A stretch of DNA of 64,000 nucleotides from Thermoanaerobacter ethanolicus JW 200 (GTDB taxonomy: Bacteria; Bacillota; Thermoanaerobacteria; Thermoanaerobacterales; Thermoanaerobacteraceae): the NCBI RefSeq assembly GCF_003722315.1, contig NZ_CP033580.1, forward strand, positions 2,669,127 to 2,733,126. Direction: 5' to 3'. The translations under genes and the position numbers were made by a program. A model generated the notes under the pieces. That model was not told the DNA's origin. It did not search any database and saw only the letters and a list, made by a program, of their open reading frames with translations. Below are positions 25,598 to 64,000 of this stretch, in pieces. The number at the start of each line of letters is the position of its first letter. Within the stretch, counting starts at the first letter, position 1.

Positions 25598-25612
25598 ATC
25601 TAATTAATGAAC

Positions 25613-25657
25613 TGGAGCTGGCAGTGGGATTCGAACCACGACCTGTTGATTACGAAT
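25613..25657 (-). other. tRNA-Thr 3' fragment, probable attachment-site scar
   Basis: The minus strand reads as the 3' 44-45 nt of a tRNA: anticodon loop end TTCGTAA (anticodon CGT), anticodon stem arm TCAAC, variable loop, T arm GTGGTTCGAATCCCAC, acceptor strand TGCCAGC, then TCCA. The 5' half is absent. 3' tRNA fragments are the standard scar of tRNA-targeted integration. It lies between a good promoter and the riboswitch aptamer. Confidence 0.8.
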
Positions 25658-25698: not shown

Positions 25699-26080
25699 GA
25701 ATGTTTGTAAAACTTGATAAATCAAGCATTTAAGATTATTGTTGAAATATGGAAATCATTTTAAATCACTTGAGATTTTCTCAGTTCGCACACAACTCGC
25801 ACACAAAATTTAATTTGGCTTTGCAACTCAAAACTTAAGTTATTATAACCTATATTTGACAGGTATATCGGAAAAGATTTGATAAATCTGAATTTCTTGT
25901 TTAAAAAATTTTGGTAAAATAATCCAGTATTACATCCTAGTTATCTTTAAATCTGTCAATAATGCGGAGTTTGTGTGGTTTTTCAGGCATTGTCAAGTCT
26001 TCCTATTAGTTAGTTGTTGTCCAATACAATTTTTTATTATTTTATCACTTAAAAAATTAGTGGCTAATCAGGCAAGATTT

Positions 26081-31423: not shown

Positions 31424-31537
31424 TTATTTATTTCTTGTTTTTGGTTTACCTTCATATCCTTCATAATATTTTTTAACAGTTCTCCTATCTATCCCATATT
31501 CTCTTGCTAATTCTAAAAAACTAGGTTTTATCTCCAT
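31424..31537 (-). pseudogene. IS21 IstA N-terminal fragment
   Basis: This short frame encodes KPSFLELAREYGIDRRTVKKYY, the HTH of IS21-family IstA transposases, then GYEGKPKTRNK and a stop. Nothing of the catalytic domain remains. An istB fragment at 51393-51583 may come from a related element. Confidence 0.65.
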
Positions 31538-31671
31538 AGCTTTGAATATACTAACACCAGCCTAATATATTTTTCATATTTGGTATCCCTCCAACAAACA
31601 GAAGGATACCAAATTCATGTACAAATTTATACATTTTTATTTTCCACTTTTCGTGCATCTTAATTTTTATC

Positions 31672-31998: not shown

Positions 31999-32105
31999 TA
32001 TCGAAAATTTTTATGTAAATATATAGTTTTATTTTCAGAAGACAATATTTATATTTATTTCAACCAACAGATTAAATACTTAACTAGCTCACTTCTTCAA
32101 TAAAA

Positions 32106-33161: not shown

Positions 33162-33979
33162 AAATTTTTGCCCCCCTTTTTATAATAAAAAATAGATGGA
33201 GTATATATTGCTTCAAATCCAGAATTCATGCCCGTTATCGTTTCTGCATGACCTAAAAACAAATATCCACCCATTTTTAAGATATCATAAAAAGTATTGA
33301 TTACTTTTTTAATAGTATTATTATCAAAATATATCAATACATTTTTACATATAATAATATCCACTTTTCCAATTTGGTCTGCTACGTCATTGTCCAAAAG
33401 ATTTATATATCTAAAGTCAACCATATTCCTAATAGAATCTTTAACCTTATAAGCGTCATCTAATTCAATAAAAAATTTCTCATATGCTCCTTCAGGCATT
33501 CTTCTAAAAGAAAAAGATTTTTTTTTATACACACCGCTTTTGGCTTTTTCCAAAACTTTTTTGTTAATATCAGAAGCAATGATTTGCACTTCTCCTGGCT
33601 GAAACAACCCACTCTCTTCAACCAACATTCCAATTGTGTAAGGCTCTTCACCAGTCGAACAAGCGGCACTCCATATACGCAAAGGATTTTGGGAGGTACG
33701 TCCTACATATTGGGGAAGTATAACTTTCCGAAACTCCTCCAAAAAGTTTTCTTCCCTGAAAAAGTAAGTTTCGTTAACTGTTATCAATTCAATTAAGGTA
33801 TCCCATTCATTTGGTTCCATGTTGAGATATCCGCAATATTCCCAATAGGATAGCCCAAGTTCTTTTAATCTTCTAGAAACTTTAGACTGAAGAGCCGGAA
33901 GATCTTTTTTATAATCAATACCACAGTAACTATTTATAAGTTCTGCTAATTGACTTATTCCGATTGTATCTGCAAACAT
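33158..33979 (-). CDS. cheR: Chemotaxis methyltransferase CheR
   Basis: CheR methylates glutamates of chemoreceptors using S-adenosylmethionine. The 273-residue protein has the all-alpha N-domain and the SAM site IWSAACSTGEEPYTI, then IIASDINKKVLEKA and IIICKNVLIYF. The ribosome site GGGGAGG is 8 bases from ATG. The IS6-like element beginning about 100 bases upstream separates it from the receptor and cheA, so it may rely on a new promoter. Confidence 0.95.
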   Translation of the reverse strand: MFADTIGISQLAELINSYCGIDYKKDLPALQSKVSRRLKELGLSYWEYCGYLNMEPNEWDTLIELITVNETYFFREENFLEEFRKVILPQYVGRTSQNPLRIWSAACSTGEEPYTIGMLVEESGLFQPGEVQIIASDINKKVLEKAKSGVYKKKSFSFRRMPEGAYEKFFIELDDAYKVKDSIRNMVDFRYINLLDNDVADQIGKVDIIICKNVLIYFDNNTIKKVINTFYDILKMGGYLFLGHAETITGMNSGFEAIYTPSIFYYKKGGKNL

Positions 33980-34083
33980 TACTATACCTCCCCTCGTTGT
34001 ATGTGTAACGTCAAATTAAAGCCTTAAATTCGCATATCTATAGTCTCTAAAACATTGGAATAAAAATTTTTTCGAGAAAAAGG

Positions 34084-34159
34084 AGGATTCCCTCCCCTTG
34101 GTGTCGTAGGTAGTAGTTGTAGCAAAAACAAACACCATCAACCCAAAGGAGGGAATCCT
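34084..34159 (+). promoter_or_regulatory. Hairpin that can hide the transposase ribosome site
   Basis: AGGATTCCCTCC (34084-34095) is perfectly complementary to GGAGGGAATCCT (34148-34159), which contains the transposase ribosome site before ATG 34165. RNA begun outside the element would fold this stem and block translation; RNA begun inside the loop would not. This mirrors protection from impinging transcription known for other IS elements; here it is inferred. Confidence 0.55.
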
Positions 34160-34164
34160 AATTT

Positions 34165-35529
34165 ATGTTTCGACAACTACTACCCGTTTTCTTTCTTACT
34201 CATTTATTAAATTTTTTGCTTAAAATTTCTCTATTCGCTCTCAAACACTTTAAAGTAGATATTCAGCCGCCTGTTGACCTCCAACCTTCAGGCTACAAAG
34301 TTTTGTCACCTTTAGAGGATCCTTTACCCCTTGTTGAAAAAGTTGTTGAGAAAAAAGATTACAAGAAAATCCTTGCCGAGGCTGAAGCTCAAGGTAAGCC
34401 TATCTCTCATGTTAGACGTATTAAACCCCTTTGTGTTGATGTTGATAAGTGCCCTGTTTGCGGTGCCCCTCCTGATTATTTGTACAGTTTTGGTAAAGAC
34501 CCTGACGGCTTTCAAAAACTACAGTGTAAAGTGTGTAAACATCAATGGGCTCCTGGTAAACCTGCTCCTAAAAAGTCTCGCCCTACTTACCGCTGCCCTT
34601 TCTGCAGGTCTGCCCTTATTCAGGATAAAACTAGAAAGAATTTTACTGTGTTTAAGTGTCGCAATGATAATTGCCCTAAGTGGCTTAACCACCGTAAAAG
34701 ATATCGCTTCAGAGCTTTTGATGTTGATTTTGATGAACTCTCTTCTTCTCCAAATGCTACCCCTGTTAACCTCGCAAAAAGCCATTTTAGCCCATTCTTG
34801 ATAGCACAAACTGTTAATTTATACGTAGGTCTCGGTCTTTCTTTAAGGCAAACTGTCTCTGTACTACAGCATATATGGCAAGTTCAAGTCTCTCATCAGA
34901 CTATACAAAACTGGGTGGTTTCCTTGGCCTCTAAACTCGCTCCGCTTGTTAAGTCTATCAACCTCCCTTTGTCAGGCCTTGTTGTTATTGATGAGACTTA
35001 CATAAAGGTCAAAGGTAAGTGGCATTACCTTTTTACTGCCTGTGATGGCTTGAGAGGTTTTATTATCTCACAGCACCTTTCTCCTCATAGGGATGCTTTA
35101 GCTGCTTTGACAATCCTTAAAGAGGTCATTGACCGTTATAGCAACCACGAATTCATTTTAGTCACAGATAAAGCGCCTATTTATGATGTGGCAGTCCATT
35201 TCGCTTCGGTTTTCTTTGGGGCCGATATCCGTCACCGACCTGTGTTGGGAATCTCTCCTCCACCCGGTGGTGACAGTCATACTTACAGACCGTATAAAAA
35301 CCGTTTAGAACGCTTATTTGGCTCTTACAAGGCTCATTACAAGCGCCATAAGTCTTTTAGTTCTTTTGAAGGTGCTGTCGCTCATGCATTGCTATATCAG
35401 CTGTACTACAATCACTTGAAACCTCATGAGGCTTCCGATGGCAAAGTACTTGCACCCCTTAAAGATAAACATGGCCACCAAGTGGATAATTGGGCTAAAC
35501 TGATTCAATGGTTTGTTGAGCTTAATTAA
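34165..35529 (+). CDS. DDE transposase, IS6/IS240-like with zinc ribbons
   Basis: The 454-residue protein has an N-terminal hydrophobic stretch and two zinc-ribbon-like cysteine sets (CPVCG...CKVCK and CPFC...CRNDNC), an HTH region (LSLRQTVSVLQHIWQVQVSHQTIQNW) and a DDE core: Asp in VVIDETYIKVKGKWHYLF, Asp in LVTDKAPIY and Glu in NRLERLFGSYK. The core resembles IS6/IS240-type transposases, while the long zinc-bearing N-terminus is larger than the usual IS6 protein. The frame is intact, so the element may be active. Confidence 0.8.
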   Translation: MFRQLLPVFFLTHLLNFLLKISLFALKHFKVDIQPPVDLQPSGYKVLSPLEDPLPLVEKVVEKKDYKKILAEAEAQGKPISHVRRIKPLCVDVDKCPVCGAPPDYLYSFGKDPDGFQKLQCKVCKHQWAPGKPAPKKSRPTYRCPFCRSALIQDKTRKNFTVFKCRNDNCPKWLNHRKRYRFRAFDVDFDELSSSPNATPVNLAKSHFSPFLIAQTVNLYVGLGLSLRQTVSVLQHIWQVQVSHQTIQNWVVSLASKLAPLVKSINLPLSGLVVIDETYIKVKGKWHYLFTACDGLRGFIISQHLSPHRDALAALTILKEVIDRYSNHEFILVTDKAPIYDVAVHFASVFFGADIRHRPVLGISPPPGGDSHTYRPYKNRLERLFGSYKAHYKRHKSFSSFEGAVAHALLYQLYYNHLKPHEASDGKVLAPLKDKHGHQVDNWAKLIQWFVELN

Positions 35530-36127
35530 ACTCTATAATCTTGACAACTTTTATGTGGTAAGTTAGACTGTATTTGAAATAGTCTAGCTTACCATAGGGT
35601 AATGTTTGCCTTCTTTGCCCATAAAAGCTTAGATTTTATTTACTTATAGTTTTTTCCTAGGTGTCATTTTAAGTTATTGATTTAATAATCACTAATTTCT
35701 TTGCTAACTACTACCTACAATTTCTATTTTTTAGGGAATCCTCATGTTCTTACTTGACGCTACCGTTGTATGAAAAAATTGTGTAAAGCTATCTTCCCAT
35801 CAGAATCTAATATCCTCCTAATGGGCACAGCTCAATCTACTTTTTTGTCTAATTACGAACTAATTCTTCAAGCTCTTCGTGAATTACCTTAGGATAGTCA
35901 GAAAGTTCTTTTGTCGCTACCGTCAATTTCTCTATATCTTTGGTATTCATATCCGCAGTTCTACCTATTTCAGAAATAAACTTCATCATTTGTTCAATTT
36001 TCTCAGCCTGAACTTTAGTTTCGCTCGTTATTTTTTTCGCTTGTTCCGTAACATTCATAATATTTTCAAATACAACATCAACATTTGAAGACTGCTTTTT
36101 CAATACAGTGGTAATCTGTTTAATTTG

Positions 36128-36967
36128 TTCGCGTGAATTTGCTACAGTTTTTACAATTTCTTCGACTCCTTTTGCTTGCTCCTCAGCTGCTAAAGCAATT
36201 TGTTCCGCTTGTATAGTCACATTCTCTACCGCTTGTACTATATTTTGCCCTTGGGTTGCCTGCTCTTTCACTGCTGTACTAATTTGACGTACCTGCTCCC
36301 TTGCACTCGCTACTCCTTTTATTATTTCTTCGACTCCTTGAGCTTGTTCCTTTGTTGCCTGCGTGACCTGAGCCGCTTGATTTGTTACATTCTCTACCGC
36401 TTGTACTATGTTTTGCCCTTGGGTTGCCTGCTCTTTCATCGCTGTACTAATTTGACGTACCTGCTCCCTTGCACTCGCTACTCCCTTTATTATTTCTTCG
36501 ACTCCTTGAGCTTGTTCCTTTGTTGCCTGCGTGACCTGAGCCGCTTGATTTGTTACATTCTCTACTGCTTGTACTATGTTTTGCCCTTGGGTTGCCTGCT
36601 CTTTCATCGCTGTACTAATTTGACGTACCTGCTCCCTTGCACTCGCTACTCCCTTTATTATTTCTTCGACTCCTTGAGCTTGTTCCTTTGTTGCCTGCGT
36701 GACCTGAGCCGCTTGATTTGTTACATTCTCTACTGCTTGTACTATGTTTTGCCCTTGGGTTGCCTGCTCTTTCACCGCTGTACTAATCTGACGTACTTGC
36801 TCCCTTGCACTCGCTACTCCTTTTATTATTTCTTCGACTCCTTGGGTTTGTTCCTTTGTCGCTAAAGCAACTTGTTCTGCTTGATTTGTTACATTCTCTA
36901 CTGCTTGTACTATGTTTTGCCCTTGGGTTGCCTGCTCTTTCACCGCTGTACTAATCTGACGTACCTG
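36128..36967 (-). repeat. Five 168-bp tandem repeats, C-terminal receptor arm
   Basis: Each unit codes for 56 residues, opening [20 protein letters not shown] and ending [13 protein letters not shown], eight heptads long. The four central boundaries are nearly identical in DNA; the fifth unit diverges at its end. A partial unit precedes the first copy. Confidence 0.9.
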
Positions 36968-37630
36968 CTCCCTTGCACTCGCTACTCCTTTTATTATTTC
37001 TTCAACTCCTTGAGTTTGTTCCTTTGTTGCCTGCGTGATCTGCGTTGCCTGTTCAGAAACTACCTTCATGGAATCCAGTACTTTAGCACTTCCTTTATTC
37101 TGTTCCTCTGTAGCTACAGCAATCTGCCGAATTTCCGCATTCATGTTTTCAATACCACCAATAATCTCTTCAATTACTTTACGCATCTCATCACTCAGCT
37201 TTGTTCCATACTCTACTTTTTCCGTTCCTACCTCAATTGCTTTTATGGCTTGAGCGGTTTCGCCTTGAATACCTCTTATAAGTGCAGAAATTTCTTTAGT
37301 TGCGGCAGCCGTCCTTTCAGCAAGTTTCCTTACTTCATCAGCAACAACAGCAAAGCCTTTCCCATGTTCACCTGCTCTAGCAGCTTCTATGGCAGCATTT
37401 AATGCAAGCAAATTAGTCTGTTCTGCAATGTCGTCAATAACTTCAATAATGCTTCCAATTTTTTCTTAACTTTTTCCAAGATTATTGATTACATCTCCCG
37501 CATGAGAAATGACCGATGATATTTCTTTAATTGCAGAAAGAGTATCATCTACTGCTTTTTGTCCGATTTTTGCTTCGTTTTGCAACGTATCACTTAGTTT
37601 ATTAATATTTTGAGCATTATTAGCAACTTG

Positions 37631-38470
37631 ATTTATTGAAGAAACCATGTTTTCAATAATGCCATATGTTTCTAATGCTGAGTTTTGCAGTTGTTCTGCA
37701 TTACCTGCTACTCCTTTTATAGATTTCCCCATCTCTTCAATCGAAGCCGATATTTCTTCTACAGCACTTGCTGTAATCTCTGCGTTCCCTGATACCTGAT
37801 TTATAGATGCAATCATCTCTTGTATCGCTGCTGCTGCTTCTTCAGCAGAGCCCTTTAAACTTTCTGCATTACCTGCTACCCCTTTTATGGACTTCCCCAT
37901 CTCTTCAATCGAAGCCGATATTTCTTCTACAGCACTTGCTGTAATCTCTGCGTTCCCTGATACCTGATTTATAGATGCAATCATCTCTTGTATCGCTGCT
38001 GCTGCTTCTTCAGCAGAGCCCTTTAAACTTTCTGCATTACCTGCTACCCCTTTTATAGATTTCCCCATCTCTTCAATCGAAGCCGATATTTCTTCTACAG
38101 CACTTGCTGTAATCTCTGCGTTCCCTGATACCTGATTTATAGATGCAATCATCTCTTGTATCGCTGCTGCTGCTTCTTCAGCAGAGCCCTTTAAACTTTC
38201 TGCATTACCTGCTACCCCTTTTATAGATTTCCCCATCTCTTCAATCGAAGCCGATATTTCTTCTACAGCACTTGCTGTAATCTCTGCGTTCCCTGATACC
38301 TGATTTATAGATGCAATCATCTCTTGTATCGCTGCTGCTGCTTCTTCAGCAGAGCCATTTAAACTTTCTGCATTACCTGCTACCCCTTTTATAGATTTCC
38401 CCATCTCTTCAATCGAAGCCGATATTTCTTCTACAGCACTTGCTGTAATCTCTGCGTTCCCTGATACCTG
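37631..38470 (-). repeat. Five 168-bp tandem repeats, N-terminal receptor arm
   Basis: Each unit codes for 56 residues, opening QVSGNAEITASAVEEISASI and ending AAAAIQEMIASIN. Copies 2-4 are almost identical, copy 1 differs (SLNGS for SLKGS), and copy 5 diverges in its second half. Unit size and copy number equal those of the other arm. Confidence 0.9.
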
Positions 38471-38808
38471 CTGAACACTGGTAGCTATTTCCCCTATTGA
38501 ACTATTTGAGTACTCTATGACTTTTGTTAATTGTTCCACATTTTTTGTTACACTATCAATTGAATTTGATAATTCTTCTGCCATACTATTAGTAGATTTG
38601 ATATCAGAAAATTGCTCAATTGTTATTTTTGCAATCTGTTCCGTAATATTAGATAAATATCCCATTTTTTCATCAAACGCTTTAGCAGAATTTATTGCTA
38701 TATGCACATTTTTGGAAAGTCCTGAACTCTCAATGAATTTCATAGCTATACTTTTTTTGAATCCCATAAACTATTTCCTCCTTATTTGTTTATTAAGTTT
38801 TATACATG

Positions 38809-40911
38809 TTATTTTTCTGACTGTTCAAAATCTATCTTGGAAACTCTTTTGCTGCCCACCATCTTTGCGATTCCTACCACATCTAATATACAGGCTACAC
38901 TCCCATCACCTAAAATTGTTGCTCCTGAAAAACCTTCTACTTTACCAACATATGAGCCAAGTGGTTTAACAACAATTTCCTGATTACCAACCAATTCATC
39001 TACCACAAGGCCAAATCGCTTTTCAGCAACTCCCAAGACTACTATAAAGATGTTTTTCTTTCTTTCTGGTCGCAAAATATTGAAGTAATCATGAAGCCAT
39101 ATGAGTGGCAGAACTTTTCCCCTAATTACAGCCACCGCTTGCCCTTTTACATATTCAATTTCGTCTTCAGGTTTTCGAACTATTTCAAGTACATTACTCA
39201 TAGGAATTGCATAAGTCTCTCTATTTATCTTGACCAATAACCCTGTAAGTATAGCTAAGGTAAGAGGCAGCTTGAGTATAAATTTTGTACCTTCTCCCTG
39301 TTTTGTCTCTATATCAATAATTCCATTTAACTTGTCTATACGACTTCGTACTATATCCATTCCTACTCCACGACCTGAAATATCCGTGACCGTTTGAGAA
39401 GTTGAAAAACCTGTATAGAAAATAAGATTAATAATTTCATGTTCAGACAAAGATTCAGCTTCTTGTGCTGTAAGAATTTGCTTCTTTGTAGCAGTTTCTT
39501 TCACTTTTTTTAAATCAATTCCACGGCCATCATCTTCCACTGTAATCACAACATGATTTTCTTGGTGAAAAGCACTAATGCGTAAAACACCTTTTGAAGT
39601 TTTTCCAGCCTTTACTCGCTTTTCTGGCGTTTCAATTCCATGATCAATAGCATTTCTAATAAGGTGGATTAAAGGATCAGTTATATCTTCTATAATTGAT
39701 CTATCCATTTCCGTTTCTCCACCCTCAAGAATCAATTCAACTTCCTTGTTTAAAGATTCAGACAAATCTCTCACCATGCGTGGGAAACGGTTAAACAATT
39801 GCTGAATTGGCAACATCCGAGTTTTCATGACGTCCTCTTGAAGCTCACTAATTATTCTTGAAACATGATTTGATATTTCCAAAAGTTCTTCAACCGTATT
39901 ATCTGAGGTATATCGGTTATGTAATGCATTTCCAACTTGAGCAATTCTTGTTTGCTCAATTACCAGCTCCCCTACCAAATTCATCATTTTCTCAAGCTTC
40001 TCTACGTCTACTCGAACAGTTTGACTAATTTTCCTCTCAATGCCGTTATCCTTGTTTAAGATACTGTCGTTGCGCTCTTCTTTTTTGTTTTCTGTTATAG
40101 CAAGTTGATGTTGTAACACGTCTGTATCATACGGATAGACTTTTATACTATCAACATCCATCAGCTCATTATGTGCTTTCGTTTCAATTGTCTTCGCATC
40201 TAGTTGGGTTATTACAAGATACGAAACTTTGCTTATTTCGGCATCATCTTGAATTTCTAATATATTTGGTTCAGTTCCAATTACAGTCCCTATTTCATTA
40301 AAATAGTTATATATTAAATAAACACGGGCCAATTTCATAAGGCTATCATTGGAAATTTTTACTTCACATAACCAGCAATTTAATCCTGCTTTTATTGCTT
40401 GTTCAATCTGTATTTGCTGGTTTATGTCAAGTGCAAATATTGTATTTACATTACTTTGGTCTATATTTTTAACTATAATATCCTTTTTTTCTGTGGTATT
40501 TTCGTTTTGATTATATTCACCGGAGAGTACTTTATTTAACTCACCTAAAACAGAAGATATATCTGTTTTAATGTCATTTCTGTCAGATAAGAAGTCTCTT
40601 TTTAGCAATCTCAAATTATCCAAGCATTGAAAAAGAATATTTATGACTGGTTTTGTGGCTTTAAGGCGATGGTTTCGTATTTTATCTAATACATTTTCCA
40701 TTTCATGAGTCAAAATCTTCATTTTTTCAAACCCTATTGCTGATGAAGAACCTTTGAGTGTATGGGCTACTCGGAATATTTTTTGTATTACTTCTGGTGT
40801 TTCACCATTTTGTTCTAATTCTAAAATGCCTTCTTCGAGAAGTTGTAATTGTTCTTCAACCTCATCAAGAAATGCCCCTATCATCTCTGGATTATCATAT
40901 ATTCCAGCCAT
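38809..40911 (-). CDS. cheA: Chemotaxis histidine kinase CheA
   Basis: CheA autophosphorylates in receptor arrays and passes phosphate to CheY and CheB. The 700-residue protein has the Hpt domain with His50 in RVAHTLKGSSSAIGF, a less conserved P2 region (about 160-290), dimerisation helices (MMNLVGELVIEQTRI), the ATPase boxes HLIRNAIDHGIE, DDGRGID and GRGVGMD, and a C-terminal CheW-like domain (YAIPMSNVLEIVR onward). All catalytic motifs are present. It is third of the visible che operon. Confidence 0.95.
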   Translation of the reverse strand: MAGIYDNPEMIGAFLDEVEEQLQLLEEGILELEQNGETPEVIQKIFRVAHTLKGSSSAIGFEKMKILTHEMENVLDKIRNHRLKATKPVINILFQCLDNLRLLKRDFLSDRNDIKTDISSVLGELNKVLSGEYNQNENTTEKKDIIVKNIDQSNVNTIFALDINQQIQIEQAIKAGLNCWLCEVKISNDSLMKLARVYLIYNYFNEIGTVIGTEPNILEIQDDAEISKVSYLVITQLDAKTIETKAHNELMDVDSIKVYPYDTDVLQHQLAITENKKEERNDSILNKDNGIERKISQTVRVDVEKLEKMMNLVGELVIEQTRIAQVGNALHNRYTSDNTVEELLEISNHVSRIISELQEDVMKTRMLPIQQLFNRFPRMVRDLSESLNKEVELILEGGETEMDRSIIEDITDPLIHLIRNAIDHGIETPEKRVKAGKTSKGVLRISAFHQENHVVITVEDDGRGIDLKKVKETATKKQILTAQEAESLSEHEIINLIFYTGFSTSQTVTDISGRGVGMDIVRSRIDKLNGIIDIETKQGEGTKFILKLPLTLAILTGLLVKINRETYAIPMSNVLEIVRKPEDEIEYVKGQAVAVIRGKVLPLIWLHDYFNILRPERKKNIFIVVLGVAEKRFGLVVDELVGNQEIVVKPLGSYVGKVEGFSGATILGDGSVACILDVVGIAKMVGSKRVSKIDFEQSEK

Positions 40912-40928
40912 GTTACACCCCCTTTCTT

Positions 40929-41354
40929 CTATTCGTAAAGAACCTTGTCAATTTTTAAAATACTAACAACACCACTATCAGTAATTCCTATACCTTCAAA
41001 ATAGCTACCATCAATTCCAGCAACCATTTCAGGAGGTGGTTGAACGTCTGAAAATTTGATAACTTGGTTTACTCTATCAACTATTATGCCAACCATTTCA
41101 TCTCTGCTTTTTAATACAACTATACGAGTTGATTTAGTAGTCGAATAATTGTTAAGTCCAAATCTTTTATGTAAATTAACAACAGGGACAATTTTGCCAC
41201 GCAGATTTATGACTCCTTCTAAAAATGGTTTACTGTTATGAACTACAGTAATTTTCTGCATTTTTATGATTTCATAAATATCGCTAATTTTTAATGCATA
41301 CCTTTCGTTGTCCAATTCATATACAACATATTGAATATCTAATAGCTCGTTCAA
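40929..41354 (-). CDS. cheW: Chemotaxis coupling protein CheW
   Basis: CheW links CheA to receptors. The 141-residue protein is a single CheW domain: YVVYELDNERYALKISDIYEI, the conserved GVINLRGKIVPVVNLHKRFG and a GIIVDRV strand. AGAAGGAGG precedes the start. It lies between cheY and cheA in the same direction, 18 bases from cheA. Confidence 0.94.
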   Translation of the reverse strand: MNELLDIQYVVYELDNERYALKISDIYEIIKMQKITVVHNSKPFLEGVINLRGKIVPVVNLHKRFGLNNYSTTKSTRIVVLKSRDEMVGIIVDRVNQVIKFSDVQPPPEMVAGIDGSYFEGIGITDSGVVSILKIDKVLYE

Positions 41355-41403
41355 ATTGTTACCTCCTTCTAAAAATATTTTTTATCCTTACGTACCCCTA
41401 AAG

Positions 41404-41757
41404 TTATAATTTACTCAAAGTTTGAATAACATAGTCTTCTTTAAATGGTTTTACAATAAAACCTTTTGCGCCAAACATAACAGCCTCCTTAACATATAAT
41501 TCCTGTCCTAGAGCTGAAATCATAACAACTTTTGCATTAGGGTCAAAAGCCCTTATTTCTTTTAATGCTTGCACCCCATCCATTTCAGGCATTGTAATGT
41601 CCATTGTTACTATATCAGGTTTCAATTCTTTATATTTTTCAATTGCAACAACACCGTTTTCAGCTTCTCCGACCACTTCAAATCCATTTTTTTTAAGTAA
41701 AGTTTTTAGTATCATTCTCATAAAAGTTGCATCATCAACAATAAGTACTTTTTTCAT
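41404..41757 (-). CDS. cheY: Response regulator CheY
   Basis: The 117-residue stand-alone receiver has Asp8/Asp9 in LIVDDA, phospho-acceptor Asp53 in MDITMPEMDG, a Ser/Thr switch in MISALG and Lys in FIVKPF. It is the first gene of the che cluster and so CheY rather than an orphan regulator. Its 400-base leader contains a c-di-GMP-I-like riboswitch, linking chemotaxis expression to the c-di-GMP enzymes nearby. Confidence 0.9.
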   Translation of the reverse strand: MKKVLIVDDATFMRMILKTLLKKNGFEVVGEAENGVVAIEKYKELKPDIVTMDITMPEMDGVQALKEIRAFDPNAKVVMISALGQELYVKEAVMFGAKGFIVKPFKEDYVIQTLSKL

Positions 41758-54950: not shown

Positions 54951-56141
54951 TTACAGTCTTCGCCTTATCCATTCGTCAAGGTTTTTCATTATGCTTTTCG
55001 CGTCTGCTAATCCAAAATAGTTGACCCATCCTGTTGTTATTTGATTTAGTCTTTTTATTCTGTTTTCCATGCTTATTCCCTTGTTCCGATTGGTTATTTC
55101 TCTTACTTTTTCCTTAAACCTTTTGATGGATTTTTCATGGATTCTTATTCTTACTTCGTTTTCTTTTGTATAGAATGAAAATCCAAGAAATTTTCTTCTC
55201 CATGGTCTATCTACAGCACTTTTTGCTTCGTTGACTTTTAGTTTTAATTTGCTTTCTATGAACTTCTTTATGCTCTTCATTACTCTGTTTCCTGCAGACC
55301 TGCTTTTTACATATATGTTGCAGTCATCTGCGTATCGGCAGAATTTATGCCCTCGTTTCTCAAGTTCTTTGTCTAGTTCGTCCAACATTATGTTTGCTAA
55401 TAGGGGACTTAATGGCCCTCCTTGGGGTGTCCCTTCTTCTGTTGATATTTTGATTCCGTTTATCATTACTCCTGATTCTAGGTATCTTCGTATTAACTTT
55501 AGTACCCTTTTATCTCCTATCCGCTTTTCTAGTTTGGACATTATTATGTCGTGGTTTACTCTGTCAAAGAACTTTTCTAAGTCCATATCTACAACCCATG
55601 TGTATCCTTCATTTATGTATGCTTCTGCGGCTTTTATTGCGTCTTTTGCACTGCGTCCTGGTCTGAATCCATAACTGTTATCTGAAAATGTATGGTTGTA
55701 GACTTTATTTAGTATTTGGGCTATTGCTTGTTGTATTAGTCTGTCTAGTACTGTAGGTATTCCTAGTAGTCTTACTCCTCCATCTGGTTTGGGAATTTCT
55801 ACTCTTCGCACTGGTTGTGGTTTGTATTTCCCCTCCAGCAGTTGTTGTTTTATGGTTGCCCAGTTTTCTTTGAGATACGGTAGAAGTTCATCTACTTCCA
55901 TCCCATCTACTCCATGGCTTCCTTTATTTGCAACAACGCGCTTGTATGCTGCTTCCATGTTCCCTCGTTCTACTATCATTTCAAGCATCTTGCTGGTATA
56001 TCTTTGTACTTCGTTTCTTCCATCTTCCGACGCCGATGATATACTATGCACTTCCGTTGTCTTTTGAAATTCCATTTCTCTATTCAACGGATAGCCTCTT
56101 TGTTGAGTTGTCTGCAGTCTCCGCATATCTTTCGAGTCCAT
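54951..56141 (-). CDS. ltrA: Group II intron reverse transcriptase/maturase, truncated
   Basis: The 396-residue protein has RT blocks IPKPDGGVRLLGIPTVLDR, SYGFRPGRSAKDAI, DMDLEKFFDRVNHD, GTPQGGPLSPLLANIML and the catalytic CRYADD, then the maturase stretch FLGFSF...WVNYFGLAD. It stops at WIRRRL, where relatives continue for further residues, so the end of domain X is lost. ATG at 56141 is far from AGGAGG (14 bases); TTG four codons upstream is also possible. Confidence 0.85.
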   Translation of the reverse strand: MDSKDMRRLQTTQQRGYPLNREMEFQKTTEVHSISSASEDGRNEVQRYTSKMLEMIVERGNMEAAYKRVVANKGSHGVDGMEVDELLPYLKENWATIKQQLLEGKYKPQPVRRVEIPKPDGGVRLLGIPTVLDRLIQQAIAQILNKVYNHTFSDNSYGFRPGRSAKDAIKAAEAYINEGYTWVVDMDLEKFFDRVNHDIIMSKLEKRIGDKRVLKLIRRYLESGVMINGIKISTEEGTPQGGPLSPLLANIMLDELDKELEKRGHKFCRYADDCNIYVKSRSAGNRVMKSIKKFIESKLKLKVNEAKSAVDRPWRRKFLGFSFYTKENEVRIRIHEKSIKRFKEKVREITNRNKGISMENRIKRLNQITTGWVNYFGLADAKSIMKNLDEWIRRRL

Positions 56142-56561
56142 AAGATTTCCCAAAACCTCCTAACGTTCGGTCCTTCCTTATCTATTCATGACTAGATAAG
56201 TACTATGACCTCTGCTGACTTCTCAAGGTTCAGCCATGCATCAGTGCATGGGTTGTCACTTCAGATTTACTTCCATGACTTATCCTTGAGACCTCCCCGG
56301 GTAAGAACGATAACTTTCATCTCATATATCTGCCAGATTTACTGTATGGGATTCGGGTAGTGTTGGATTTCGTTTTGTTACGCAAACTCATCCATCCCAA
56401 TTCAGCCTCTTATCTGGTTCTTGTTCATCAGACCGAGATTTTGCCTTAAGCTTCCTTCAGATTCCACCTCACGATGGACACCCTTGCTCTTGGCTAGTGG
56501 TTCCCACTACCAAGCCCACAGCGGACTTTCACCGCCTAGTTATCGCCCATGCCGGACGCAC
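54951..56561 (-). mobile_element. Group II intron, 3'-truncated
   Basis: The 5' end is GTGCG at 56561, followed by about 400 nt of structured RNA (GTGAAAGTCCGC, GTGGAATCTGAAGGAAGC, GGGAGGTCTC) and a reverse-transcriptase frame. Sequence changes to an IS256 scrap right after RRRL. I find no domain V hairpin, so it should not splice. The 5' exon is a terminator hairpin (56571-56591), a site preference of class C introns. 56142-56560 is intron RNA without other genes. Confidence 0.8.
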
Positions 56562-56570
56562 ACAAACTGA

Positions 56571-56591
56571 AAGACGCTATAAAAGCGTCTT
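56571..56591 (-). terminator. Terminator of the parB-like gene; intron target
   Basis: A perfect 7-bp stem AAGACGC/GCGTCTT with a 7-base loop overlaps the parB stop. The intron is inserted about ten bases further on, replacing the T tract's downstream side. Confidence 0.75.
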
Positions 56592-58008
56592 AATTAGTAT
56601 CAATCTTTGAAATAATCGTGCTAAACATTTCTTTAAGCTGTTTGCAAAGATTTAAGAAAGATTCTTTATCTTGTTCGTCAAAAGATGCTAAAATATCTAA
56701 ATCAAGTTTTTCTAACTCTCTTTTAGTATTTTCAAGGCTTTCTGTTATTCTCCAGAGTTTTTGTGTATTTCCATTTTTTTCTTTTAACCACAATGTTTTG
56801 TAATTTTCTTTTTCCTGCTTAATTTGTTCATATTCCTGTTTTGCTTTTTTAAGTTCCTCTTCTGTTTGTTTAAGTTTTTCATAGATATTTTCCTGCTGTT
56901 TCTTTAAATTTTCTATTTCTTGTTTTATGTTGTCAGGAATTACTTCTATTTTTTCTATTGGTTTATTTTGGAGTTTTTTTAATTGTTCGTTTGTAAATTC
57001 AATAGCTGTTTTATATTGTTCTATAAGAGTCTCTTTTTGTTTTATTTCATCTTCTTTTTGTTTTATTTCAAGGTCTTTTTCTCTGTTTTGTCTTATTAAT
57101 TCATTTAACTGATCGATAAGATCTTGCATATCTTTTTCTGCCTGTTCCCTTATCATTTGGACTTCCTGCATACTGATTTCCATAATGTCTTCTTTTAATG
57201 TTTTATAAAGAAGCTCTTGTATGGAAGGTTCAAGATATGCTATTTCGGTTGCAACAGATACAGGTATTTTATTTTCTCTTACAAGCTGCTGTATAGCAGG
57301 AATAAGTTCGTTGAGTCTTTTAAGTTTGTAATAATAACTTTTTTTGATTCCTAAAGTATCCATAATTTCTGATTGGGATTTTTTGGGTAATGGTTCTCCA
57401 CTTAGTGAAGTTCCACTTCTTAAATACTGGTTATTTCCCCTCTGTATTTCATATATCCTTTCAAGCTCCAATATACCCTTTGCTACCTTTATAGGGTTTA
57501 AGTTTGCTATTCCCCTCTGTCTATAGTTTACTTCCAACAGTTCTTTTAAAATCCAATCTTCTTTTTTAATACCATCTTTGTTTTTATATTCTTTTACAAT
57601 ACAAGGTACTTCTTTCAGCCCCAATTCTCTCGCTGCACGTAATCTTTGACTTCCTGATACTACCGTGTAATCATCTGTTACTATAAGCGGTGTCAATATA
57701 CCACTTGTCCTGATGCTTTCCAAGAACTCTTCCCACTGCCTACCTTCTATGTCGTCAAAAAACTCCCTGTTTAGTAAGTTCTCTTTCAACAGCTCGGCGC
57801 TTATCATTTGAATTGTTGGTTTCTCAGGAATATTATCTTTTTGTTTTACTTCTTTTTTCGGCTCTTTTTGTTCCTGTTTTACAACAGGAGTTTCTGCAGG
57901 GAATTCTATCATTCCAGGAATCTCAATCTTAAAATCCTCATTTTCTTCTAAAAACTCGATTTTAAATTCTTCATCGTTATTAAAAGAGTTAATATTAAAA
58001 TTATTCAT
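56590..58008 (-). CDS. ParB-like nuclease-fold protein with long coiled coil
   Basis: The 472-residue protein has an acidic, disordered start, a ParB N-domain (about 70-150: [20 protein letters not shown], then [20 protein letters not shown]), an HTH region ([20 protein letters not shown]) and a charged coiled coil (about 290-440, [20 protein letters not shown]). The long coiled coil is unusual for partition ParB. No parA is adjacent. Divergent from a replication-type operon, it probably serves maintenance of a plasmid or integrated element. GAAGGTGAG precedes the start. Confidence 0.78.
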
Positions 58009-58201
58009 ATTTTCTCACCTTCTTTTAATCTTTTCTTATTTTTACTTTCGTGTCCTATTAAATTAAATTTTATCAATCCATTTTTTAATTACTTTAAATA
58101 TATATAATCTTGTTATACAGGTTGTAGTCGGAATTTTATTTTAATTTTCAATCTATTTGCTTATTTCTTCTCTTTACTTCTTGGATTGCATCACATATTA
58201 G

Positions 58202-58210
58202 TTATTCACA
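58202..58210 (+). promoter_or_regulatory. DnaA-box-like site in divergent region
   Basis: TTATTCACA matches the DnaA consensus exactly. A single site is weak evidence, but the AT-rich stretch 58020-58320 between parB and the replication-type genes is where an origin would be expected. No iterons are visible. Confidence 0.35.
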
Positions 58211-58319
58211 AAACATCTTATAGCTATATTTTAACATATACTGCACAAAGTATCAAATAAATTCGATTCATTATGAAAATATTTAGCTTTCTAAATCAGA
58301 AAAAAATTAAAAATTTCTA

Positions 58320-58347
58320 TTGCCTTTTTCTAAAAAGGTGATATAAT
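58320..58347 (+). promoter_or_regulatory. Promoter of the multi-hairpin RNA
   Basis: TTGCCT and TATAAT are separated by 16 bases; the start would fall at about 58353, immediately before the first hairpin. Confidence 0.65.
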
Positions 58348-58350
58348 AAA

Positions 58351-58640
58351 ATCGAAGGTGGAATTGAGAGATGCATTTTCTCTCAATTATAAGTATTTAA
58401 AAGGTGGATGTACGTATAAAAGTACATGCCATCTTAAATGAAAGAGGAAAACAGGCGTTTGTCTGTTAAAATGTGATGAAAAGGCGGATGAATTGCCTTT
58501 AACTTTAAAAGAAAATGTGGAAAAGGGTATTTTATGCCCTTAAACTACAAAAAAGGAAACAATAAACCTAAAAAGGTGTATTGTTTCCTTTTATTTTGAA
58601 AAGGAGGACAATGGATAATTCCATGTCCTCCTTTTGTTTT
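58351..58640 (+). ncRNA. Candidate structured RNA of seven consecutive hairpins
   Basis: Seven hairpins follow in about 275 nt: 58362-58388 (10 bp), 58402-58434, 58449-58467, 58478-58502, 58521-58543, 58551-58592 (14 bp) and 58599-58635 (at least 11 bp, then TTTTGTTTTGTT, a strong terminator). Most begin with AAAAGG or a close variant. GGA triplets recur between and in hairpins. No open frame with a ribosome site is present. A promoter precedes it. I do not recognise the family; it could be a regulatory RNA or a multi-hairpin leader of the operon starting at 58722. Confidence 0.6.
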
Positions 58641-58721
58641 GTTAAATTTTAGTATTCAATTGTGAAAATAACTTAAATATTGCCATTTAGCATTTTGGAA
58701 ATTTTTGTGGAGGTGTTTTTA

Positions 58722-58925
58722 ATGAATAAAAAATTATTAAAATTAAGCGATGTTGCCGAAATTCTTGACATTAAAATAGATAGGATTTATGCCCTTGCAA
58801 GACAGGGAATTATACCCGTTGTGAGAATTGGACGCCAATTGCGAGTCGATCCAGAAAAATTACAAGAGTGGATAGAGCAGGGCGGTCAGGGCTTCGAAGG
58901 TGGATGGAAGAAAAAAGAAGGATGA
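58722..58925 (+). CDS. Excisionase-type HTH protein
   Basis: The 67-residue protein is one winged/MerR-like helix-turn-helix: LKLSDVAEILDIKIDRIYAL, then GIIPVVRIGRQLRVDPEKLQ, the HTH_17 pattern of excisionases and plasmid regulators. ATG at 58722 has GGAGGTG six bases upstream; an earlier in-frame start has no site. It leads the plus-strand operon and ends six bases before the next start. Confidence 0.8.
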   Translation: MNKKLLKLSDVAEILDIKIDRIYALARQGIIPVVRIGRQLRVDPEKLQEWIEQGGQGFEGGWKKKEG

Positions 58926-58930
58926 TAAAT

Positions 58931-59527
58931 ATGATTACTTCTAAATACAACATATTTCAAGTGGTAAAAGAAAATATTGATCTTATGGAAGCCATAGAGT
59001 ACTATGGTTTCCAGCCAATAAGGAAAGGGCGTTATTATTGGCTCTTATGCCCTTTCCATTCAGAAAAGCACCCAAGCTTTTGTATTAATGGAAATACTTT
59101 TAAATGTTTCGGGTGCGGAGTCCATGGAGATGTAATAAATTTTGTATCGCTATTATTTAATTTGAAGCCTATAGACGCTGTTTATAGGCTTGTAACAGAC
59201 TTTGGTATAGATTTACCATATGCAAAAAAAATTGACAAAATATATTGCAAAGCAAAACAAAATTACGAAGATATAAAACTTTACCAAGCTTTTATTACTC
59301 AAAGAGACAGAATATACGATTACTTATGCAATATACGTGATATTTATAGCCGTTTAAAAGAACTCATTACAAACCCAGAAGATATACAGCTCGACGAATT
59401 TGTTGAGACCTGCCATAAACAGGATCTCATAGAATACTGGTTGGATATTATTCTAACAGGAAGCATTCAAGAACAATATGAAGTGATTAAATCAGTAATC
59501 AAGGAGGTAACAAATGATGGAAAATAA
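58931..59527 (+). CDS. CHC2 zinc-finger protein (primase N-domain-like)
   Basis: The 198-residue protein has the primase-type finger with Cys40 and His43 in CPFHSEKHPSF, and Cys59 and Cys62 in FKCFGCGVHGDVINF, then a helical region. There is no Toprim polymerase domain, so it would need a partner to act as a primase. ATG at 58931 has AAGG eight bases upstream; frames upstream overlap the HTH gene. It overlaps the DUF3987-like gene by 14 bases, showing tight coupling. Confidence 0.8.
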   Translation: MITSKYNIFQVVKENIDLMEAIEYYGFQPIRKGRYYWLLCPFHSEKHPSFCINGNTFKCFGCGVHGDVINFVSLLFNLKPIDAVYRLVTDFGIDLPYAKKIDKIYCKAKQNYEDIKLYQAFITQRDRIYDYLCNIRDIYSRLKELITNPEDIQLDEFVETCHKQDLIEYWLDIILTGSIQEQYEVIKSVIKEVTNDGK

Positions 59528-60881
59528 ATCACAAATAATCTCTGAACTTAAAAGAATTAAAAGTCAAGATCAAGACTTTGAAAAAATTATAACCATTGAA
59601 CCAATATCAAGTCAATATAATGCTAATGAAGAAGATATTTTAATGGAAGAAGAAGCTATTCCATGGCCTGCTGACTTCACTAAAGAAGCATATCACGGCC
59701 TAGCGGGTGAATTTGTCAAATTAATAGAACCCTATACCGAAGCAGACCCCGCTGCTCTCTTGATGACTTTTTTAACAATCTTTAGCTGCTACATTGATAA
59801 AAAAATATTTATGCAGATAGGCACAGAAAAGATTTATAGCAATATTTATACTCTCATTGTTGGCAACAGTTCTAAAGCAAGAAAAGGGACAAGCTGGAAT
59901 GCTGTCATAGAATTATTTAAAAGGTTAGATTCTAACTTCGTAACACACCGCGTAAAGAGCGGTTTTGGGAGCGGTGAAGGAATTATCGCAAAAGTCAGCG
60001 ACGAAATGTATGATAAAAAAACAAAGCAATGGATTAAACGAGAAGACCAGAGATTGCTGCTGTTTGAGCCAGAATTCAGTTCCATTTTAAAAATAGGTAG
60101 TAGAGAAGGCAACATTCTCACAAATATTATAAGAGAAGCTTTCGACAATCATACTATTGAAAATAACGTAAAATACGACGATTCCTCTCTTCGATCCTCC
60201 AATCATCATCTAAGTATTGTCGCACACATTACAGCTCCCGAATTAAAAAAATTCATGAAAGAAGTAGATACAAAAAATGGCTTCTACAATCGTTTCCTGT
60301 GGATATGCGTAAGACGCAGTAAACTCTTGCCCATATCGCCACCTATAGATGATGGTATCTATAACAAGTTACTTTTAGATCTACATGACATAATTGAATG
60401 GCTTAATAACATAAATATCCATGTAATAACATTCGACGAATCCGTAAAAAGCTATTGGATTGAAATATACAAGGAGCTTTCCAATGAAGATACAGACGGA
60501 TTAGTAGCAGATCTTACAGCGAGAGCAGAAACCTATCTATTAAGGTTGAGTCTTATATATGCAGTATTGGATAAAAGCATGACCATTAAAAAAGCCCATA
60601 TAGATGCCGCACTCGCCGTATGGGATCGTAACGTTCAATCAATTAAATTTCTATTTGGAGAAAGTAAACCTGATACCATAGAAATAAAAATATTAAATGC
60701 TCTACAAAACAATCCAATGACCCAAGCAGAACTCTATAACAACATTTTTCATCACCATATAAAATCTGAAATACTCAACGAAGCTTTGCAAAAATTATCT
60801 GCCAAAAACAAAATTAATTGCCAAATAATTAAAACAAAAGGTCGACCAAAAAAAATTTGGTCGTTAAATGAAAATAATTAA
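59514..60881 (+). CDS. DUF3987-like ATPase of plasmid/phage replication
   Basis: The 455-residue protein has the opening WPADFTKEAYHGLAGEFVKL typical of DUF3987, a P-loop-like VGNSSKARKGTSW, LLLFEPEFSSIL in place of Walker B, HLSIVAHITAPELKKF, and a C-terminal winged-helix segment (ALQNNPMTQAELYNNIFHHH). DUF3987 proteins pair with CHC2 primase fragments and are taken as replicative helicase-type factors. AAGGAGG is six bases from the ATG. From 60882 to 61077 there is no gene, only AT-rich sequence. Confidence 0.75.
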   Translation: MMENKSQIISELKRIKSQDQDFEKIITIEPISSQYNANEEDILMEEEAIPWPADFTKEAYHGLAGEFVKLIEPYTEADPAALLMTFLTIFSCYIDKKIFMQIGTEKIYSNIYTLIVGNSSKARKGTSWNAVIELFKRLDSNFVTHRVKSGFGSGEGIIAKVSDEMYDKKTKQWIKREDQRLLLFEPEFSSILKIGSREGNILTNIIREAFDNHTIENNVKYDDSSLRSSNHHLSIVAHITAPELKKFMKEVDTKNGFYNRFLWICVRRSKLLPISPPIDDGIYNKLLLDLHDIIEWLNNINIHVITFDESVKSYWIEIYKELSNEDTDGLVADLTARAETYLLRLSLIYAVLDKSMTIKKAHIDAALAVWDRNVQSIKFLFGESKPDTIEIKILNALQNNPMTQAELYNNIFHHHIKSEILNEALQKLSAKNKINCQIIKTKGRPKKIWSLNENN

Positions 60882-61077
60882 ATGTCCATTTAAAATTGTT
60901 TCATTATCGCTAAAAGCACAAAAAGCTCAAAAATTTGAAATTAACTATTTTAGTTGCACAAAATGAGAACATTATTCGCATTTAATGTACAGTTATTAAA
61001 AGGTCAGAAACCCAGAAAATATCCTATTTGTGCTTAATGTTCTTTTTATTCAAGAAACTATAAAGGAGATGATGTTT

Positions 61078-61527
61078 ATGTCTTCCTACTGGGAAGAACA
61101 GAGTATTTTAAATAAAATGAAAAACAAATATTCTGCCTTAACTTCCTGGGATGAAAATAAAACATTTCGCTATATACAAGATAGTATTGAAAAAATGTCA
61201 AAGAAATATTATCAATCAAAAGTTCAAGGAGCAATCAACTGGGTAGAAAAATGTCATTCACCTTTAAATGAAAAATATAACAAAACGCTAGAAAAAATAG
61301 ACCTCTCATTCAAAGCAAAAAACATGACAGAACTTTATGAAACTGTCGCAGCTTTTGAAGAAATAATCAACGAGATAATAAAAGAATATAAAAATGCAGT
61401 ATTACTAGCTAATGAAATAAAAACCAGCATTTATAATCTCATATGGGATGAAAGTACTGGTTTTTATGAAATAAAAGATACTTCTATAAACATTAACATA
61501 GAAAAAATTTTTACAGAAAGGAGTTGA
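61078..61527 (+). CDS. Hypothetical helical protein before the topoisomerase
   Basis: The roughly 149-residue protein is rich in Lys, Glu and Asn and largely helical (ALTSWDENKTFRYIQDSIEK, NWVEKCHSPLNEKYNKTLEK). No motif is recognised. AAGGAGAT precedes several close ATGs; I choose 61078 for its spacing. It ends eight bases before the topoisomerase start, so the two are translated from one message. It may be an accessory subunit, which is only positional inference. Confidence 0.6.
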   Translation: MSSYWEEQSILNKMKNKYSALTSWDENKTFRYIQDSIEKMSKKYYQSKVQGAINWVEKCHSPLNEKYNKTLEKIDLSFKAKNMTELYETVAAFEEIINEIIKEYKNAVLLANEIKTSIYNLIWDESTGFYEIKDTSININIEKIFTERS

Positions 61528-61535
61528 ATATCAAT

Positions 61536-64000
61536 ATGGATAACATAGCAGCTTTAAAAGATACTAATAAAACCAATAACATTAAAACACTCAGCAGAAT
61601 CACTGCAGAAATCTCTCGGGCTTCTGAATATTTTTCACTAAAAGAACTCCAAGCTCAAACTGGTCAGCCCTATACTAATTTTGCTTCCGTTGTGCTTAAG
61701 GAACTTGTAGACAATGCCCTGGATGCCTGCGAAAGCAACAACATTATTCCAGAGATAAATATAGATATTCTTATGAAAAATGACATATACCTGATTAGCA
61801 TCTCTGACAATGGACGTGGTATTCCACCACATACAGTCAGCCGCATTCTTGATTTCAGCATCCGCGTTTCGGACAAGTCCATTTACCGCAGTCCGACGCG
61901 TGGCGCTCAAGGCAATGCTTTAAAGACAGTATTAGGTATTCCCTTTTCTCTTGGGTGCTCTATGCCAGTTATAATTGAGGCACAGGGAACAAAACACACA
62001 ATTTATACTCGAGTTGATGCTATAGGAAATGTAAGAATAGAACATTCTAAAGAACCTTCTCAATATGTGGAAGGAACTAAAATTACAGTACCTGTCCCAT
62101 CTGCCAATCAAAAATTTTATCCTGAATGGTGGGCAAAAGCTTTTGCAATTTTCAATCCCCATGCCTCGATAAAAATTAGACTTTTTGATAAAAAAAGTGT
62201 CAATGATTCAGCATGCTCAAATGCTAAAGACTTTCAGAATAAAACACTTGAATTTTTACCAACCGTATCTTTCCCAGATGAATGGATTAAATTTTTGCCA
62301 ACTAATCCAACATCTCCTTGGTGGTACTCCGAAGAAGACCTTGCAAGATTGATTTTTGCTTATGTTTATTCAAAAAATGACATTACCTTAAGAGAATTTG
62401 TTCGTCAATTTCGTGGATTTTCAGGTACTCAAAAAGCAAAAGAAATTTGCAGTAAGTTTTCTGAAATAAAATATTTAAGGGATTTTGAAGAACATCAACC
62501 ATTGATAGGGATATTGCTTGAAACAATGAAGAAAAATACAAATCCTGTCCATTCCAAAATCCTTGGTTTCTGTGGCGAAGAACACTTTAAAACCAACTTT
62601 TCACAACTTTACGGAATCAAACGCTTTTGGTACAAATCTTCTTTTGGAGAAATTGAAGGAATACCATATGTAATAGAAGTAGCTCTTGCAGAAACTCAAA
62701 AGGAGGGTGACATTTTCACAGGCATAAATTTTAGCCCTACTTTTGATGACCCTCTTGCATCAATTCCTCTTTCCTCTTCGGAATTTGAGGCTTATGGTAT
62801 TCATGGGTTTCTTTCCCATGTTGTTCCTTACGCCCAACTAGAGAATAGTTTGAAACCTCAAAATAATATAGCAATGGCTTTTCATCTAGTATGTCCTTCC
62901 CTTGACTTTTTGGATAGAGCTAAAACACATATAACATTACATCCAAAAATAGCAGAAGATGTTGCAAAAACTTTATGGAGTGTATGTAAAACTATTTACA
63001 AGGAAAGAAAACAAAGAGAAAAAAATGCAGCACGCGCTGAAAGAAAAGCCATGGAAAGAGAAAAAATGCTTAAACGTGCCCAATATACAGTAAGAGAAGC
63101 AGTGTTCAAAGTATTACCAGAAGCAATAGAAAAAGCTACTGGTAACGGTAAATATCCTGTTAGTGCTCGAACTCTTTATTATCAAGTACGGCCGTTAATC
63201 CAAACTTACACAAATAAAGAACTTGAATACAACTATTTTAGCCAAAAACTTTTAGTGGAATATCAAAAAACTTATGGTGTAATAAATCTGATATACTATG
63301 ACCCTCGAGGAATTCTTTACGAGCCATATACTAGGAAAACATTACCTCTAGGTACGAGAGAAGTGGAAAAATATGAATTCCCCGATTGGGTATTTAATAA
63401 AATACTTTACGTAGAAAAGAAAGGCGTATGGCCAGTTTTAGAAGCATCGCAAATTGCAGAAAGATACGACATGGCTATCATAGTAGCTGAAGGTTATGCA
63501 ACTCAAGCAGCTAGAATTCTTTTCGAGCGGGCAGATAAGCAGAAAGACTACAAGCTTTTTGTATTACACGATGCAGATCCATACGGTTATAACATTGCTC
63601 GCACATTAAGAGAAGAAACAGAACGAATGAAAGGATATTCTGTCGACGTCATAGACATAGGTCTTAAATTAGAAGAAGCCCTTGAAATGGGGTTACAAAG
63701 TGAAACTTTTACTCGGGAACAAGACATACCTAATGGCATAAAGGAAAACCTTACTCCTCTTGAAAAAGAGTGGTTCATTGGTAAAAAAATCCACAACAAA
63801 TCAAGTTTATCGCGTAGAATAGAGCTAAATGCTATGAGTGGTCCTCAACTTGTAGAATATATAGAAAAAAAACTTGAAAAATACGGAGCTTGCGCTAAGG
63901 TATTACCTCCTCAAGACATAGTTATAACCCATGCCAATAATCTTCACCATGCCCTATTAGAAAAACAACTGGAGCAACGTATAATAGAAAAGCTAAATAT
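61536..64000 (+). CDS. Fused type IIB topoisomerase (Topo VIII-like), partial
   Basis: The frame is open for 821 codons to the window end. The N-part is a GHKL ATPase like Topo VI B: KELVDNALDACE (55-66), DNGRGIPPHT (91-100), RGAQGNALK (122-130). The C-part is like Topo VI A/Spo11: catalytic tyrosine region SARTLYYQVRPL (Tyr548/549) and Toprim acids Glu627 in YVEKKG and Asp679/Asp681 in HDADPYGYNIA. B and A in one chain defines the Topo VIII type known from plasmids and integrated elements. ATG is 12 bases from GGAG. Confidence 0.88.
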   Translation, partial: MDNIAALKDTNKTNNIKTLSRITAEISRASEYFSLKELQAQTGQPYTNFASVVLKELVDNALDACESNNIIPEINIDILMKNDIYLISISDNGRGIPPHTVSRILDFSIRVSDKSIYRSPTRGAQGNALKTVLGIPFSLGCSMPVIIEAQGTKHTIYTRVDAIGNVRIEHSKEPSQYVEGTKITVPVPSANQKFYPEWWAKAFAIFNPHASIKIRLFDKKSVNDSACSNAKDFQNKTLEFLPTVSFPDEWIKFLPTNPTSPWWYSEEDLARLIFAYVYSKNDITLREFVRQFRGFSGTQKAKEICSKFSEIKYLRDFEEHQPLIGILLETMKKNTNPVHSKILGFCGEEHFKTNFSQLYGIKRFWYKSSFGEIEGIPYVIEVALAETQKEGDIFTGINFSPTFDDPLASIPLSSSEFEAYGIHGFLSHVVPYAQLENSLKPQNNIAMAFHLVCPSLDFLDRAKTHITLHPKIAEDVAKTLWSVCKTIYKERKQREKNAARAERKAMEREKMLKRAQYTVREAVFKVLPEAIEKATGNGKYPVSARTLYYQVRPLIQTYTNKELEYNYFSQKLLVEYQKTYGVINLIYYDPRGILYEPYTRKTLPLGTREVEKYEFPDWVFNKILYVEKKGVWPVLEASQIAERYDMAIIVAEGYATQAARILFERADKQKDYKLFVLHDADPYGYNIARTLREETERMKGYSVDVIDIGLKLEEALEMGLQSETFTREQDIPNGIKENLTPLEKEWFIGKKIHNKSSLSRRIELNAMSGPQLVEYIEKKLEKYGACAKVLPPQDIVITHANNLHHALLEKQLEQRIIEKLN

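Follow-up and report, generated by a model that had tools for sequence, protein, structure and literature searches.

A 64,000-nucleotide stretch of the Thermoanaerobacter ethanolicus JW 200 genome (the window; bases 2669127-2733126 of a single 2.91-Mb contig) ends inside a gene for a single-chain topoisomerase VIII (Topo VIII), which looks complete and intact when followed past the window's edge and which is carried by an integrative element of ~45 kb at a tRNA-Thr(CGT) gene. We consider it very probable that the gene encodes an intact type IIB enzyme, which on the simplest reading was added to the replication module of the element and which likely relaxes or unlinks the excised circle during replication. 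Extended coordinates, used beyond the window, are window numbering carried into locus L002 (L002 position + 50873). Residue numbers refer to the ATG form of the protein (883 aa); searches and models used the TTG form (887 aa).

Table 1. Features of the element, the replication module and the topoisomerase gene
Feature	Position	Strand	Evidence
attL, a 46-nt repeat of the tRNA-Thr(CGT) 3' part that is one base short	25612..25657	.	repeat comparison; four relatives with the site empty
Two arm-type repeats TCGCACACAA, 11 bp apart	25786..25806	+	same pair at extended 70457/70468
ParB-like protein, long coiled coil, divergent	56590..58008	-	ParB_N 1.6e-11, phrog_12047 1.1e-23
HTH_17 / excisionase-like protein	58713..58925	+	Pfam 5.8e-12, TIGR01764 4.4e-8
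CHC2 zinc-finger (DnaG-type) protein without catalytic primase domain	58922..59527	+	Pfam 1.2e-20
DUF3987 putative replicative helicase	59514..60881	+	Pfam 2.6e-17; PHROG helicase 1.6e-13
Small, mostly helical protein, 149 aa	61078..61527	+	behind DUF3987 in six relatives without topoisomerase
Topo VIII, fused B-A chain, 883 aa	61536..64000, on to extended 64187 (L002 10663-13314)	+	open frame, Pfam/NCBIfam, relatives, AF2 model
GHKL ATPase region, ~residues 52-221: N-box KELVDN, G1 DNGRG, G2 RGAQGNAL	61689..62198	+	HATPase_c, Topo VI-B matches, conserved residues
H2TH-like region and transducer, switch lysine K463 near end	62313..62939	+	Topo VI-B profile alignment, VIA-align, Lys 94/94
Helix with catalytic Tyr549 (RTLYYQVRP), winged-helix region	63168..63194	+	Tyr549 94/94; helix in model
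Toprim domain: E627, D679xD681	63402..63845	+	PF21180 7e-12; three acids 94/94
Intact tRNA-Thr(CGT) gene with attR	extended 70524-70599

A fused chain with Topo VI-like halves

From ATG 61536 the topoisomerase frame covers 821 codons inside the window and runs on in the genome sequence beyond it until a stop at extended 64187, giving 883 aa without an internal stop, the last 62 of which fall outside the window. At the local base composition an open frame of 884 codons has a chance of ~2e-29. The ATG is a better start than the in-frame TTG at 61524, since the Shine-Dalgarno stretch AAAGGAG (61517-61523) abuts the TTG and lies 12 nt from the ATG. A preliminary description of this DNA had read GHKL motifs, a catalytic tyrosine region and a Toprim DxD from one frame of at least 821 codons, and had left its 3' end to be recovered; frame and profiles bear this out, and the frame proves unbroken across both halves.

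Each half of the chain matches Topo VI. Pfam finds the TOP6A-Spo11 Toprim domain (PF21180, 7.4e-12), which places the C-terminal part within the Topo6A/Spo11 family, and HATPase_c (2.3e-7); its Topo VI-B transducer match, at 0.004, is under the cut-off. NCBIfam names Topo VI B (3.9e-23) and Topo VI A (1.4e-9) in the same chain, all scores being far under the equivalog cut-offs. A six-sequence profile aligns residues 26-457 with S. shibatae-type Topo VI-B, through its H2TH region and transducer lysine loop, and a profile built from A halves hits structures of Topo VI-A (6e-10). In an AlphaFold2 model made from 33 fused sequences (mean pLDDT 84.7, pTM 0.58), residues 21-516 align with Topo VI-B (VIA-align) with a Z of 31.6 and an rmsd of 6.5 A over 446 residues, and the gyrase B match to the same model, ~23 in Z, is well under this value. 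On sequence grounds the A half appears to be related to Topo VI-A. Compared with Topo VI of Methanosarcina mazei and Saccharolobus shibatae, the B half aligns along nearly all of Topo VI-B and the Toprim domain matches Topo VI-A, but Topo VI has two subunits, identity in the B half is ~18%, and the Topo VI-A compared is without the C-terminal Trp extension.

The active site is conserved. Across 94 aligned sequences (the window protein and 93 relatives), Tyr549, E627, D679, D681, K463 and both G2 glycines occur without exception, and the N-box and G1 residues are kept in 90-92. Position 548 varies (Tyr in 40, Met in 29, Phe in 23), so that of Tyr548/549, named together in the preliminary description, Tyr549 is the conserved residue. 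Trp857, in a C-terminal extension beyond the window end, is found in 90 of the 94 and is absent from one Natrinema Topo VI-A.

The gene product is a Topo VIII, a known kind of enzyme, in the sister clade of the group that includes the protein of plasmid pPPM1a. It joins a Topo VI-B-like GHKL domain and transducer to a Topo VI-A/Spo11-type tyrosine and Toprim domain in one 883-aa chain, and its locus lies on an integrated element. In a tree of 92 rows with a single Topo VI outgroup (Natrinema), the root of which is unsure because of the long branches of the outgroup and of the Halalkalicoccus row (L006), the window protein falls among known Topo VIII and is separate from Topo VI. The single-chain B-A type IIB assignment of the preliminary description is thereby upheld, with matches of both halves to Topo VI profiles and a relative on pPPM1a. 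Mini-A, an A-type protein without a B half, was rejected as an assignment, the B half being present. The top NCBIfam names, Topo VI B and A, could instead point to an imported Topo VI whose subunits have become fused. This reading is scarcely credible against a best score of 81.8 bits where the curated cut-off is 274, on which membership in the Topo VI equivalogs was rejected, a tree position among Topo VIII relatives and away from the Natrinema outgroup, and the Trp857 extension that Natrinema Topo VI-A lacks.

Fused and split relatives

A single-sequence scan of genome contigs returned no Topo VIII relative. An alignment scan of genome contigs found 173, and the counts of relatives given here are lower bounds because the best 80 of these 173 were used; an alignment scan of viral contigs found 18, and tblastn against plasmids nine records, including pPPM1a of Paenibacillus polymyxa M1 and plasmid 5 of Halalkalicoccus jeotgali. 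Distribution is sporadic: in a set of 37 genomes of the class no other carries a Topo VIII gene, the remaining matches being short GHKL stretches, and 7 of 398 genomes in a phylum sample match the protein at E <= 1e-20. A decayed copy in genome G327 (L161 2090-2476; 57% identical over 130 residues, one internal stop) has a transposase-like gene nearby.

The closest protein among the best 80 of 173, from Thermoanaerobacterales bacterium 50_218 (L011), is Topo VIII-like, fused and 59% identical, and its contig also has an excisionase-like gene and an integrase. It differs in the family A DNA polymerase and DUF3854 protein beside its topoisomerase, and no relative of the CHC2/DUF3987/small-gene module was found on that contig. 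The pPPM1a protein, reportedly the P. polymyxa Topo VIII assayed in a 2014 study, likewise has the fused B-A form, the same domain order and the same catalytic residues, and lies on a mobile element. Unlike the window protein, it belongs to an all-fused clade; the two are 27-29% identical, and it is ~130 aa shorter, with most of the difference in the B half.

The tree resolves into a group of 39 rows, all fused, with the pPPM1a, Microscillaceae and Pseudomonas megaplasmid proteins, and a group of 51 rows that includes the window protein and holds 22 fused and 29 split forms. Adjacent two-gene B/A pairs make up at least 29 of the 90 relatives in the tree. In the 29 split loci the B/A boundary falls at one place, window residue ~472 (TTG numbering), where the two genes mostly overlap or abut within a few bases (e.g. 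-1, -4, -8, -11, 0), and a Shine-Dalgarno-like stretch precedes A in many of them. Since sequencing errors would not cluster at one place, the split forms are unlikely to be such errors; L103 and L105, whose A halves appear to be frameshifted, are not counted as split. Within the window's clade, well-supported branches show at least nine switches between the fused and split labels, counted irrespective of direction. A single chain is therefore not what defines Topo VIII, and the contrary statement in the preliminary description does not hold. One split Topo VIII lies on a viral contig (L101 2797-7042) with a terminase large subunit downstream, which suggests that tailed phages or prophages may carry some Topo VIII of their own.

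The host element and its replication module

The element is bounded by att repeats of 46/47 nt, and pairs of TCGCACACAA lie near both of its ends, with no further copy in 90 kb. In G002, which is of the same species, and in G005, G007 and G009 the flanks directly adjoin each other, which makes the ~45 kb enclosed by the repeats an insertion. These repeats, arm sites and empty sites, with the relative on pPPM1a, agree with the earlier placement of the enzyme on an integrated, plasmid-like element. On the 3' side of the topoisomerase follow an IS30 element, a second tyrosine recombinase (305 aa, L002 15863-16780) and the integrase, which ends 76 bp from tRNA-Thr(CGT). Cargo genes include chemotaxis and c-di-GMP genes (window 26376-41757: CheA, B, R, W, Y, MCPs and GGDEF/EAL), a transposase/AAA pair, a P-type ATPase, a chromate transporter and SLAC1. 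The element's cheA matches congeners in parts only, at 63-71% DNA identity. The element also carries a ParB-like protein and, by our own reading of the sequence, a group II intron-type reverse transcriptase (window 54951-56153), to which a near-identical protein start occurs in G004 (L173 15843-17255). Among the profile matches of the element ORFs scanned, a part of all its ORFs, there were no relaxase or conjugation genes. A different insert of ~4.7 kb occupies the same tRNA-Thr site in G010 (L162, G010:C8:213000-218400); it holds a MATE-like transporter gene and IS genes, but an integrase was not seen in it. A long masked N run beside tRNA-Glu and tRNA-Asn in L003 (2450-7600) is possibly an rRNA operon.

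Frames and Pfam matches confirm that CHC2, DUF3987 and small genes lie ahead of the topoisomerase, as the preliminary description had it. Helicase function on mobile elements is predicted for DUF3987 domains (PMC5862659). The topoisomerase's Shine-Dalgarno stretch sits inside the last codons of the small gene, and the genes may be co-transcribed; the 196-bp gap between DUF3987 and the small gene keeps a single message at the level of a proposal. Relatives of the small protein turned up in genomes of the class only; searches of plasmids, phages and viral contigs found none. A model from its sequence alone is poor, with a pLDDT of 49, and we put its weak matches to PRP9_N (Pfam) and PDC-S06 (PADLOC) down to chance similarity between helical sequences. 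The stretch 56300-61100 showed no iteron array, most of its repeats looking like chance matches in AT-rich DNA. The divergent ParB-like gene is the one neighbour to suggest a partition role, and no ParA gene was seen beside it; ParB-like genes also lie downstream of Topo VIII in five relatives.

The same module occurs without a topoisomerase. DUF3987 and small genes are neighbours in six loci (G004, G007, G008, G009, G011 and G016), each with an integrase 54-65% identical to that of the element, and none contains Topo VIII or a remnant of it (best tblastn E 0.58). The CHC2 gene is present in all but the G016 locus, the order CHC2, DUF3987, small gene being kept in these five, and an HTH gene was called in two of the six. 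At the G016 locus lie a recombinase related to the second one of our element (71% identical) and an integrase beside tRNA-Thr(CGT). The elements of G007, G008 and G009 measure 7.6-8.0 kb between 47-bp repeats of a tRNA-Thr(UGU) gene (in G008, 19 + 27 bp with one mismatch); they share the gene order and an integrase 65% identical to ours, as well as an att repeat in a tRNA-Thr gene, but are without Topo VIII and large cargo and use a different tRNA-Thr gene as target. The small gene had been proposed as a dedicated partner of the topoisomerase, and the CHC2, DUF3987 and small genes as its dedicated machine. Neither proposal survives these comparisons, and the recurrence of the small gene in loci without topoisomerase marks it as part of a replication-integration module. 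Because the module exists elsewhere without Topo VIII, the simplest reading is that the topoisomerase was added to it, behind the small gene and ahead of the second recombinase; loss of Topo VIII from the smaller elements is a possible alternative.

Proposed role of the topoisomerase

We base the proposed replication role on the domains of the enzyme and on its neighbouring genes. The element would insert into tRNA-Thr(CGT) by its own tyrosine integrase, and once excised, as a circle, it would use its own helicase and zinc-finger protein to replicate. The topoisomerase, working most likely as a homodimer, would close its N-terminal GHKL/transducer gate upon binding of ATP, Tyr549 and the Toprim acids would make a transient double-strand break, and a second duplex would pass through, so that the circle could be relaxed or unlinked while the element replicates. 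Topo VIII is described as 'usually' or 'most' homodimeric, implying some two-subunit forms (PMC7614492; PMC8185306). Among 81 proteins neighbouring Topo VIII in the window's clade, a simple count with no control set gave Phage_integrase 8, Prim-Pol 6, AAA_25 5, DUF3987 3 and D5_N 3, with integrases and primase/helicases as the most frequent families. That related elements do without a topoisomerase weakens the case that replication needs one. Three Topo VIII enzymes have been assayed, including a plasmid-borne one from P. polymyxa; their activity is weak, and many copies of the family look inactivated (PMC7614492).

Cleavage without strand passage would give the enzyme a different purpose, that of a Spo11-like nuclease making double-strand breaks through Tyr549 for element mobility or defence. 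The A half shares its Tyr/Toprim core with Spo11, and the Topo VIII of Ammonifex degensii gave only cleavage in vitro (PMC7614492). We nevertheless regard such a nuclease as quite unlikely, as the GHKL, H2TH-like and transducer parts are complete, the switch lysine is kept in all relatives, no PADLOC model matches the topoisomerase, and the neighbours of its relatives are often replication and integration genes. There is also a small chance that the gene is a passenger without present function, heading for decay. Its sporadic distribution across the phylum sample, the decayed relative in G327 and the IS30 element just downstream would all fit such a fate, against which stand 883 codons without a stop and the retention of all catalytic residues.

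Our preferred reading, that of an intact Topo VIII serving the replication of its element, can be set in a wider and more tentative frame, to which we would give rather less than even weight. Topo VIII could be an interchangeable accessory of small integrative replicons, gained and lost independently of the replication module, with its halves repeatedly fusing and splitting, and an element type of ~8 kb at tRNA-Thr without topoisomerase would have acquired one here, perhaps for its large cargo. The repeated changes between fused and split forms indicate that type IIB enzymes pass easily between one and two chains, a point relevant to the evolution of Topo VI and Spo11. An intact-looking copy in a delimited element, together with related elements of the same genus that are without the gene, forms a natural pair for testing the biological role of Topo VIII.
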